Shown in pieces: positions 35,847-39,569 of a stretch of DNA of 64,000 bases (within the stretch, counting starts at the first letter, position 1; the number at the start of each line of letters is the position of its first letter). The position numbers and the translations under genes are program-made. The stretch is from Haloferula luteola (GTDB lineage Bacteria; Verrucomicrobiota; Verrucomicrobiia; Verrucomicrobiales; Akkermansiaceae), in NCBI RefSeq assembly GCF_014201715.1, contig NZ_JACHFD010000006.1:46510-110509 (forward strand), given 5' to 3'. Below the pieces are notes generated by a model that was not told the DNA's origin, did no database searches, and saw only the letters and a program-made list of their open reading frames with translations.

Positions 35847-38800
35847 ATGGATAGGCATCGCTTCATGAAGACCCTGTTCATCACGTTCACCCTCGGGGCC
35901 CCCTTGTTGGCCCAGGCGGCTCCGGATTGGGAAAACCAGCACGTTTTCCGCATCAACAAAGAAGAACCCCGAGCCATTTCGATGCCCTTCCCCACCGCGG
36001 AAGGTGCGCTCTCCCACAAGCGCCTGGAATCCCCATGGTGCCAGCTTTTGAACGGAGATTGGAAATTCCATTGGGTCGAACATCCCGACCAACGCCCCGT
36101 CGATTTCTACAAGCCCGACTTCGACAGCTCCTCGTGGAAGACCATTCCGGTTCCTTCCAACGTCGAAATGGAAGGCTACGGCACGCCCATCTACACCAAC
36201 GTCACCTATCCGTTCGTCAAGAACCCGCCCTTTGTGATGGGCGAACCCCCGCAAAACTGGACCACTTTCAAGGAACGCAATCCGGTTTCCTCCTACCTCC
36301 GCACCTTCACCATCCCGGAGAACTGGAAAGGTCGCCACACCTTCATCAACTTCAATGGTGTCGACTCCGCCTTCTACCTCTGGATCAACGGCCAGAAGGT
36401 CGGCTACTCCCAAGATTCGCGGACTCCGGCAGAATTCGACATCACTCCCTACCTCAAGGAGGGGGAAAACACCCTCGCCGTCGAAGTCTACCGCTACTCC
36501 GATGGCGCCTATCTTGAGGATCAGGACATGTGGCGCCTCTCCGGAATCTTCCGGGATGTCTACCTCCACTCCTCCGCGCCCCTTCAACTGCGCGACTTCT
36601 TCGCTCGCGGCGGCCTTAGCGACGACTACGCCAAGGGCACACTGAATCTCGAAGCAGAAGTCCGCGACCTCCAAGGCGGCAGCTCTTCCTGGTCCGTCAA
36701 CGCCATCGTCACCGACCTCACCGGCAAGGAAGTGGTCAACTCCACCCTCACCGGAAACACCGGCGAAGGGTCCTCACTCAAACTCGAAGGCCTCGACATC
36801 CAACCTTGGTCAGCGGAAAGCCCGACGCTCTATCAGCTCCTGCTCACCCTGAAGAATGCCGACGGCCAACCGGTCGATTACTTCGCCACCAAAATCGGAT
36901 TCTCCCGCAGCGAAATCAAAAATGGCCAACTCCTGGTCAACGGCCAGCCGATTCTCATCAAAGGCGTCAATCGCCACGATCACGATCCCGACACCGGCCA
37001 CTACATCTCCGAGGAGCGCCTCCTCGAAGATATCCTCCTGGCCAAGCGGAACAACATCAATGCCATCCGCACCTGCCACTACCCGAACGACCCGAGATTC
37101 CTCGAGCTCTGCGATGAATACGGCCTCTACGTTTGCTCGGAGGCCAACATTGAATCCCATGGCATGGGCTATGGAGACGAATCCCTCGCCAAAGACCCCT
37201 CTTGGAAGGATGCCCACCTCGACCGCGTCCGCAACATGGTCGAGGCCTTCAAAAACCATCCATCCATCATCCTCTGGTCCCTCGGCAATGAAGCTGGCGA
37301 CGGTGTGAACTTCGAAGCCTGCTCCGAGTGGATCAAGGCCAACGAATACTCCCGCCCCGTTCACTACGAGCAAGGTGGCCGCAAGGCCCACGTCGACCTC
37401 TACTCGCCCATGTACGCCTCCCACGATTGGTGCGAAGGCTACGCCCGCGATGAGGAGAAAAAGCCCCTCGCCGAACAACGGCCTCTGATCCAGTGCGAAT
37501 ATTCCCACGCCATGGGCAACTCCACCGGTGGACTCGCCGAATATTGGGATCTCTTCGAAAGGGAACGCCTGCTCCAAGGCGGATTCATCTGGGACTACAT
37601 TGACCAAGGCATCCGCACCACCAAACCCGCCCCGGCCGAACTGACCGATCACTCCGCCCAAGGGCACTTCGTGACCGCCAGCGGCAAGCTCGATCCTACC
37701 CGCGGCCTGATCGAAGGGAGCGCTTCCATCGCGGACGCCCCCAGCCTGCGACCCGAAGGCCCCTTCACGGTCATGGCCGAAGTCACCCCTGCCGAAAATC
37801 CAGGCCACAACGACATCCTTTCAAAGGGCGACCAATCCTGGTCCTTGAAGATCGGCGCCACCGGACGGCTCGAGTTCTTCGTCTACGACGAGACCTGGCA
37901 CACCGTCGCCGCCGACCTTCCCGCGAATTGGCAAGGCCAGCGCCACACCGTCGCCGGGGTTTTCGATGGCAGCCAACTCCATCTCATCCTCGACGGCAAA
38001 GTGCTCGCTTCCGCACCGTTCACCGGAAAAGTCCGCTTCGATGGTCGCCCCATCGTCGCTGGCTCCAACGACGAGCATCCGAGCCGTGTCTTTCATGGCG
38101 ACCTCCACCGCATCCGTTATGTCGGTTCGGCACTCGCCGCCGATCAACTCGATCAGGGTGCCGCCTTGCTTGAAGTGAACTTCCGCGAATTCACCCAGCC
38201 TGAAGGCGAACGAGAATTCTTCGCCTATGGCGGCGACTTCGGTGACATCCCGAACGATGGCAACTTCTGCTGCAATGGCATTGTCGCTGCCGACCGCTCG
38301 CCCACCCCGCAGCTGCCGGAGGTGAAAAAGTGCTACTCGGATCTCGGCTTCGAACTCGTCGGACCAGGGGAAGTTCGCATCACCAACAAGCGCTTCTTCG
38401 CCAGCTTGGACGACCTCAAACTCGCCTGGGGTATCCTCGTCGATGGCGTGGGACGCCTGGATCGTTCCGCACCACTGCCGAACATAGGGCCTCGCTCCTC
38501 TGCTGTCGTGAAGCTCGACCTCTCCGAGGTGCCTCTTTCCCCGGGTCAGGAAGTCGTTCTCGCCGTGGATCTCTCCCTGAAACACGACACCTCGTGGGCA
38601 CAAGCCGGCCACCGCGTTGACTTTGCTCGCTTCGTCCTCGCCGGTTCCGGCATCACGGCCCCGGCGAGTTCCGACTTGCCCGCCCCGAGCGTCGCCGAGT
38701 CCGATACCCTCGTCACCGTCAAGGGAAGCGACTTCTCGGCTGATTTCAGCAAAAGTAACGGCGCCCTCGAACAACTCACGGTGAAGGGCGAGAAACTCCT

Positions 38801-39569
38801 CCTCGCTCCCCTTACCCTGAACTTCTGGCGTGCCCCCGTCGACAACGACAATGGGACCGACGGCAACTGGCAGGTCGACTACCGACGCGTCTCGGCCCCT
38901 TGGAAAACCGCTGGCCCACAGGCTCGCGTGCTCTCCCACTACGTCGAAACTCTGGACGACTCCGTTGAAATCCATTTCGCCCTCCGCATCCCGGTGGGCA
39001 ACAGTCAGGCTGTCGTCATTTATCGAATCGATGGCGGTGGCAAGGTGACGGTCGACACCACCTTCAAGCCCCGGGCGGGTCGCGATGAATCCATTGGCCG
39101 CATCCCACGGATCGGCATGCAAACCCGAGTCGCCAAGAAACTCCACACCCTCTCGTGGTATGGCCTCGGCCCGCACGAAACCATGCTCGACCGCCACCGC
39201 GGCGGTGAACTTGGAAACTGGGCCGTGCAAGCCGATAAAGCTTGGTATCCCTACGTTGAACCCCAGGAAACCGGCAATCGCACCGGAGTTCGCCACGGGC
39301 GCCTGACGGACGACTCAGGCAAGGGCCTCGCCTTCGCCGCCATCGGCAGTGAGCTCTCCGTTAGCGTTTGGCCATTCACCACAGCGGACCTCGAAAACGC
39401 CGCTCACCCCTGCGACATTCCAGAGCGCGACTTCGTCACTCTGAATCTCGATCACGCCCAGCAAGGCGTCGGCGGCGAAAACTCCTGGGGCGCGCTGCCG
39501 CTGCCTCAGCACATCCTGCGTCCGAACCAAGACTACCACTGGATCTTCAGCCTCGAAGCCCAAGACTGA
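35847..39569 (+). CDS. lacZ: Secreted beta-galactosidase (GH2, LacZ type) with inserted lectin-like domain
   Basis: 1240 residues; the ATG at 35847 has GGGAGG six bases before it, and a signal peptide follows (from [18 protein letters not shown] at residue 7). LacZ layout: sugar-binding domain (about 40-230), Ig-like domain, then the TIM barrel with the acid/base Glu482 in [11 protein letters not shown] and nucleophile Glu551 in [10 protein letters not shown], and the C-terminal beta-sandwich domain. Between DYIDQGI (about 586) and [11 protein letters not shown] (about 794) about 200 residues are inserted; their pattern ([40 protein letters not shown]) is that of a LamG/concanavalin-like domain. 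It should release galactose from beta-galactosides outside the cytoplasm. Confidence 0.95.

Follow-up and report, generated by a model that had tools for sequence, protein, structure and literature searches.

A LamG Domain Inserted into the Catalytic Barrel of a LacZ-Type Enzyme from Haloferula luteola and of Scattered Relatives in Five Phyla

Closest Described Systems

In its passage on additional domains, a 2016 survey (PMC5145203) places Laminin G3 between GH2C and DUF4981, among 50 entries that have extra domains. The same order (GH2_N, GH2, GH2_C, Laminin_G_3, LacZ_4 (DUF4981), and Bgal_small_N) is found in a LacZ encoded by Haloferula luteola, in the 64-kb stretch of DNA analyzed here (the window). 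The LamG-in-LacZ architecture has thus been in print since 2016. The single sentence given to it in that passage puts the domain after the barrel and relates it to cell adhesion, whereas the domain of the window LacZ is embedded in the final part of the barrel, ahead of the metal-site residues, and the inserts analyzed here are one LamG group across five phyla. The LacZ proteins of E. coli, T. maritima, and B. thetaiotaomicron have the other domains and the catalytic residues in common with the window LacZ, which differs from them by 193 additional residues at the site corresponding to E. coli 582/583. Neither an assay nor a structure of a LamG-bearing LacZ was found in the open-access literature or among the solved LacZ structures.

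Two other enzymes carry comparable sandwiches. The GH43 arabinanase AbnA of Geobacillus stearothermophilus (5hon, 5ho0) has, in the description of its Domain4 (PMC9110388), a LamG-like sandwich that binds arabinan and faces the active site. Domain4 is C-terminal and sits on a hinge, while the LamG domain of the window LacZ is inserted in the catalytic fold. In the closed state, Trp758 of Domain4 forms a hydrogen bond with Glu420 of the catalytic domain, and cross-linking that locks Domain4 to the catalytic domain lowers the kcat 260-fold, from 13 to 0.05 per s. In CE20 esterases, as outlined in the account of their inserted domain (PMC12313940), a beta-sandwich is likewise inserted in the catalytic domain and is more variable than the catalytic part. 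It is placed over the active site. The catalytic fold and chemistry of CE20 are different, and its sandwich is GH2-like, not LamG.

What is new here is the exact insertion place, the corrected order of the catalytic residues, the assignment of the inserts to a single LamG group with a residue signature, their scattered distribution, and the natural pair that the window LacZ forms with an insert-free paralogue, L002.

The LacZ Gene and Its Domain Organization

The open reading frame at 35847-39569 of the window (forward strand, as are all features of this gene) encodes 1240 amino acids and matches NF052611 (beta_gal_Bga2A, the LacZ-type equivalog of NCBI) with 1051.7 bits, above the curated cut-off of 999. 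The product is a complete LacZ-type GH2 enzyme, with predicted beta-galactosidase activity. Residues 1-24 (35847-35918) are a probable signal peptide, recognized by eye from a basic start, a hydrophobic stretch, and AQA; a crude signal-peptide script, which is undecisive, did not flag this N-terminus. Judging from the N-terminus, the enzyme is probably exported.

Pfam matches cover GH2_N (residues 68-242; 36048-36572), the second GH2 sandwich domain (residues 248-352; 36588-36902), LacZ_4 (DUF4981) (residues 843-931; 38373-38639), and Bgal_small_N (residues 959-1235, including W1214; 38721-39551). The GH2_C barrel is in two parts. The first and main part, delimited by Pfam and the alignments with T. 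maritima and E. coli LacZ, is residues 356-591 (36912-37619) and includes E482, E551, and W582, and the last part, which corresponds to profile positions 250-300 (38193-38345; profile match G000:C6:84702-84854), includes N803, F807, and N810.

Between these two parts lies the insert (37620-38198), delimited with the T. maritima alignment and AlphaFold2. T. maritima LacZ, the best solved homologue, is aligned to residues 28-591 and 785-1235 and skips 592-784; the insert is therefore residues 592-784, preceded by WDYIDQG and followed by [10 protein letters not shown]. The initial annotation had described a lectin-like insert of about 200 residues between DYIDQGI and YGGDFGD. The domain is real and was placed correctly, while its length is corrected to 193 residues. 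Laminin_G_3 (PF13385) matches residues 626-767 (37722-38147) with the E-value 6.9e-15 in the whole chain, and the insert alone matches it with 7.2e-16 and 59.1 bits, above the curated cut-off of 27.6. The insert by itself gave no match in NCBIfam, and a phmmer search with it against PDB returned two weak plastocyanin matches only (E-values 0.073 and 0.14). For each of the 47 distinct solved sequences found at E-values up to 1e-150, the best-matching stretch stops at profile positions 553-558, ahead of the insert.

Position of the Insert Relative to the Active Site

The insert had been thought to part two halves of the barrel, with intact catalytic glutamates on both sides. Of the 302 positions of the barrel profile, those up to 253 are used before the insert and 250-300 downstream of it, and thus only the last barrel segment is downstream of the insert. 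The glutamates are indeed intact, but both of them precede it. In the alignment with E. coli K-12 LacZ, E482 corresponds to E461, E551 to E537, and W582 to W568, all upstream of the insert, and N803 (N597), F807 (F601), N810 (N604), and W1214 (W999) are downstream. The insertion point corresponds to the junction of E. coli residues 582 and 583. In E. coli LacZ, N597, F601, and N604 act at the Mg and Na sites, and N803, F807, and N810 are taken to be the metal-site residues of the window LacZ.

The window LacZ keeps the E. coli active-site set: N118, D227, H377, H411, E436, H438, E482, Y523, E551, H554, W582, N803, F807, N810, and W1214. The equivalents of E. coli D201, H391, E416, H418, E461, Y503, E537, H540, and W568 are conserved in all 51 rows of the alignment, while N597 (28/51), F601 (42/51), N604 (41/51), and W999 (35/51) are variable.

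In the AlphaFold2 model, the strand ending at W582 (540-546 in model numbering) is the last barrel strand ahead of the insert. The LamG sandwich thus interrupts the turn that follows barrel strand 8, between W582 and N803/F807/N810. The loops that follow the strands of a TIM barrel form its catalytic side, and so the insert would stand at the rim of the active site. The alignment with E. coli LacZ agrees with the earlier proposal that the insert is close to the active site, as the loop adjoins active-site residues.

Fold and Residue Signature of the Insert

Structure prediction of the whole chain, suggested in the initial annotation, gave a ConA/LamG beta-sandwich for the insert with high confidence, both alone and within the chain. 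The AlphaFold2 model of residues 37-1236, calculated with 50 relatives, has a pLDDT of 93.1 and a pTM of 0.91, and block means of 85-97 in the insert (556-748 in model numbering). The insert alone, calculated with 30 relatives, has a pLDDT of 96.2 and a pTM of 0.92, and consists nearly entirely of strands. The whole-chain model is superposed on the solved LacZ structures 3dyo_A (961 residues, 1.9 Å), 6sd0_A (956 residues, 1.9 Å), and 3bga_A (953 residues, 2.2 Å).

The best fold matches of the insert model in PDB are PAPP-A (Z 17.7), the putative carbohydrate-binding protein 4dqa of B. ovatus (17.3), AbnA (16.8-17.1, over 170-171 residues at 2.9 Å and 17% identity), dimethylformamidase (17.0), and the pentraxin PTX3 (16.9); these values are regarded as tied. 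Many other ConA-like sandwiches, including pentraxins and the binding domains of clostridial neurotoxins, are also matched, and such broad matches say only that the fold is common. To our knowledge, no sugar binding is known for PAPP-A or dimethylformamidase. A profile of 31 inserts recovered, among solved structures, pappalysin-2, an S-layer protein, AbnA (5hon, 5e-7), and laminin G chains.

The inserts have a set of residues that are absent from most other LamG domains. When 31 inserts were compared with 55 other LamG domains, all of them sequences related by descent, for which the calculated p-values come out too small, the differences were found at K660 (29/31 versus 9/55), D662 (22/31 versus 7/55), aromatic 665 (30/31 versus 3/55), E676 (20/31 versus 3/55), aromatic 678 (19/31 versus 6/55), aromatic 684 (20/31 versus 7/55), P692 (30/31 versus 15/55), aromatic 695 (26/31 versus 0/55), D/E743 (24/31 versus 4/55), and R747 (22/31 versus 3/55). 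K660, aromatic 665, P692, and aromatic 695 are conserved in most members of every sampled phylum, Hydrogenedentota being represented by one. The profile alignment pairs K660, W665, and W684 with K732, W737, and W758 of AbnA, in a numbering counted by hand. K668, E676, F678, and W684 would point outward, as suggested by the strand alternation when L667, F677, and V687 are taken as the core.

Distribution of the Insert

One possibility raised at the outset was that the insert is a common variable loop in the LacZ proteins of the phylum. This is not the case: the lengths at this site are bimodal, and the insert was found in at least 11 of 387 sampled genomes. The insertion site has 184-246 extra residues in 32 of 114 LacZ rows, 32 or fewer in 82, and none in between; the 114 rows represent 113 distinct genes or fragments, as L003 repeats L009, and they were partly gathered with an insert-bearing query, so that 32:82 is not a prevalence. 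A common variable loop of all LacZ proteins is thus excluded.

A match running through the insert was found in at least 11 of 387 Verrucomicrobiota genomes, H. luteola included, in 13 proteins (E-value up to 1e-20, with at most six candidates scored per genome, which makes this a lower bound); in three further genomes, the match is confined to the C-terminal flank. The profile used was built from the hits of the LacZ search (E-value up to 1e-100), which itself found LacZ in at least 239 of the 387 genomes, again a lower bound, with at most two candidates scored per genome.

The search for the same insertion point in other GH2 enzymes, also proposed beforehand, revealed its use in five phyla. 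With the inclusion of a scan of named genomes, which kept 80 of at least 552 confirmed loci, inserts were found from Verrucomicrobiota, Planctomycetota, Actinomycetota (Lentzea, Amycolatopsis, Actinoplanes, and Micromonospora), Bacillota (Virgibacillus, Clostridium paraputrificum, and a Eubacterium MAG), and Hydrogenedentota. The internal site is identical in all 31 inserts examined from the five phyla, with a query chosen to find that site, and 29 of the 31 match Laminin_G_3 at an E-value of 0.001 or less.

In the 51-row alignment, H357 is replaced by A, M502 by R, and W999 by T in eight rows, which are gapped at N597 and F601, and N604 is replaced by D in nine. These eight rows are taken to be the actinobacterial carriers L047, L050, L052-L056, and L058. 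The actinobacterial carriers probably act on another substrate. In an Akkermansia muciniphila MAG (L042), lacZ is seen as two overlapping matches near the stretch matching residues 882-888, which may reflect gene disruption or faulty assembly.

Evolutionary History of the Insert

On the best tree of residues 30-591 (109 rows, 30 with the insert; a quick method), the insert state changes 11 times, and at least six changes are required by well-supported branches; these counts cover gain and loss alike, with no direction assigned. A single clade of carriers was ruled out on the same residues (50 of 109 rows; lnL 392 lower, p-AU 2.4e-10, quick tree). The insert-free L002 (contig C7 of the H. luteola genome), L017, and L019 are placed among the carriers. 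L002 and L017 have 22 extra residues at the insertion site, compared with 193 in the window LacZ.

Thirty of the 31 inserts nevertheless form one group (95/83) when compared with 29 of the 56 remaining LamG matches in the H. luteola genome, and again one group (86/77) when compared with 55 LamG domains drawn from nine genomes, in a tree of 146 columns whose bootstrap is unsettled. The 55 domains comprise the 29 of this genome and 26 of eight other genomes; the latter come from 30 loci, of which three are inserts themselves and one, L184, was left out. The insert of L018, on a very long branch, is the exception in both trees. Recruitment from the LamG stock of the genome is unsupported, since 30 of the 31 inserts group apart from the other LamG domains. 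The 4.9-Mb genome of H. luteola contains 57 Laminin_G_3 matches, many of them in large proteins.

Module swapping was set aside as a rule. Among 30 rows, distances of the insert and of the N-terminal part of the enzyme are correlated with r = 0.67, and those of the C-terminal and N-terminal parts with r = 0.91. Co-inheritance of insert and enzyme dominates, with possible exchange of some modules. The simplest reading of these sequences would be one old insertion that traveled with LacZ and was repeatedly lost; transfer of whole genes or of the LamG module is a possible alternative.

Gene Neighborhood

Upstream of lacZ, on the same strand, are galM for galactose mutarotase (30874-32301, forward strand; the true start is probably later than that of the open reading frame), a sodium/solute symporter gene (32451-34412, forward strand), and galK for galactokinase (34516-35751, forward strand; TIGR00131, 339.6 bits against a cut-off of 226.65). 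The window LacZ seems to feed galactose use, and its galM and galK neighbors fit beta-galactosidase activity. Terminator-like hairpins follow the symporter gene (34434-34459) and lacZ (39589-39614, forward strand); they are consensus matches only, from a search that returned 18 sites in the window against a mean of 8.7 in shuffled sequences. From these two hairpins, the lacZ transcript may be separate from that of galM and the symporter gene. An inverted repeat between galK and lacZ (35783-35816), recognized by eye, is a possible terminator or regulatory hairpin. A second GH2 gene (42467-44935, reverse strand; a PF02836 match) lies 2.9 kb downstream on the opposite strand.

In other insert-bearing regions, galK is beside lacZ in 4 of 11, while it was seen in none of 16 named loci (16 of 20; flanks of at most 6 kb). 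Carbohydrate-active neighbors or sulfatases are present in 5 of the 11 regions, among 30 neighbor proteins scanned. L154 has two sulfatases and a TonB receptor, L158 has a sulfatase, GH20, and GH57, L151 has a Pel9A-like beta-helix, L152 has an alpha-amylase, and L157 has a GH5-type protein. The remaining neighbors in the 11 regions show no common theme. L150 (genome G319) has two insert-bearing lacZ genes (3755-7498 and 12203-15880) within about 12 kb, and the first of them has galM, a symporter-like gene, and galK as neighbors. In L149, L150, and L159, the insert-bearing lacZ adjoins genes for proteins with PSD/PSCyt3 domains (DUF1592 and related); L149 and L150 also have HXXSHH (DUF1552) next to it.

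Possible Function of the Insert

The likeliest role of the LamG insert, held at about even confidence, is glycan docking on the rim of the LacZ active site, in the manner of Domain4 of AbnA. The insert, built into LacZ, would hold a galactoside-bearing oligo- or polysaccharide chain beside the pocket, and the pocket would remove the terminal galactose from the docked chain. The released galactose would be taken up via the neighboring symporter and phosphorylated, passing through GalM and GalK. The ideas of the initial annotation, that the insert delivers polysaccharide or limits the size of the substrate, are compatible with the data. A broader scenario is possible though doubtful: a LamG lineage acquired once and carried through at least five phyla would face the LacZ pocket and present polymeric or surface-bound galactosides to an exo-acting enzyme, and its losses would represent switches between polymers and free disaccharides.

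Docking is suggested by the position of AbnA Domain4 among the nearest solved relatives by both profile and fold, by the aligned K, W, and W, by the insert-specific residues, and by the single grouping of the inserts across phyla. The galactose genes next to the window lacZ, galK in 4 of 11 other insert-bearing regions, and carbohydrate-active neighbors or sulfatases in 5 of these 11 are also in favor of it. Domain4 is a module that binds a sugar, arabinan, and faces the active site (PMC9110388, in its part on Domain4), and this likeness would support a docking module at the rim. Against docking, the signature residues could just as well pack on the barrel, and the equally near folds include PAPP-A and dimethylformamidase, for which we know of no recorded sugar binding. 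LacZ works without the insert, since many close relatives lack it, and the insert-free paralogue in the same genome (L002) also counts against docking. Signal-like N-termini are not in excess among proteins with the insert (19/30 versus 58/79 without it, by the crude script), the neighbors galM, symporter, and galK would fit free disaccharides as well as polymers, and galK was seen in none of the 16 named loci.

The main rival is a structural role: packed against the barrel or an adjacent subunit, the LamG domain would shape the active-site entrance or the oligomer and bind no sugar itself, possibly restricting which substrates fit. This is rather unlikely, although K660, aromatic 665, P692, aromatic 695, D/E743, and R747, which are characteristic of the inserts, could form such an interface. 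The inserted beta-sandwich of CE20, which covers the catalytic domain and helps to form the active site (PMC12313940, in its account of that domain), and the decrease of the AbnA kcat from 13 to 0.05 per s with Domain4 locked on the catalytic domain (PMC9110388, in its part on Domain4) are both in line with it. Two observations on the LacZ side speak against it. Among the listed tests for LacZ positions co-varying with the insert, none was below 0.05, with six independent pairs, which are too few for significance. The stretch equal to E. coli loop 272-287 is short in the window LacZ and also in the insert-free L002, L017, and L001 (by eye, in a weak alignment), and the insert is thus no simple replacement of that loop. 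In E. coli LacZ, this loop completes the site of the neighboring subunit.

It is improbable that the LamG domain is an adhesion module that merely tethers the enzyme to a cell surface or matrix, with its nearness to the active site due to chance. The survey of 2016 links Laminin G3 to cell adhesion in the passage on this domain (PMC5145203), and the 57 Laminin_G_3 matches of the H. luteola genome reflect a wide use of the fold. However, a chain end would serve an anchor equally, while all 31 inserts, found with a query chosen for it, are at one internal site, and their residues are unlike those of other LamG domains. A tolerated passenger, inserted neutrally at a permissive turn and often lost, is very improbable. 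The 11 state changes, at least six of them by well-supported branches, would agree with it, as would the conservation between the window LacZ and L010, which is 0.73 in the N-terminal part, 0.52 in the insert, and 0.51 in the C-terminal part. The fold, K660, aromatic 665, and P692 are nevertheless maintained in most inserts of every sampled phylum, and a merely permissive site would be expected to hold unrelated domains, whereas 30 of the 31 inserts belong to one LamG group.

Implications

LacZ is among the best-studied enzymes, yet scattered relatives bear a lectin-like domain beside the active site. The window LacZ and L002, which are 61% identical in the N-terminal part, offer a ready comparison with and without the insert within one genome. 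If the insert presents polymers, it would show how a lactose enzyme was turned to complex glycans, and galactosidases with other substrates would be on offer. If its loss marks switches between polymers and disaccharides, natural pairs with and without the insert would be available, and the two lacZ genes of H. luteola would be one of them.
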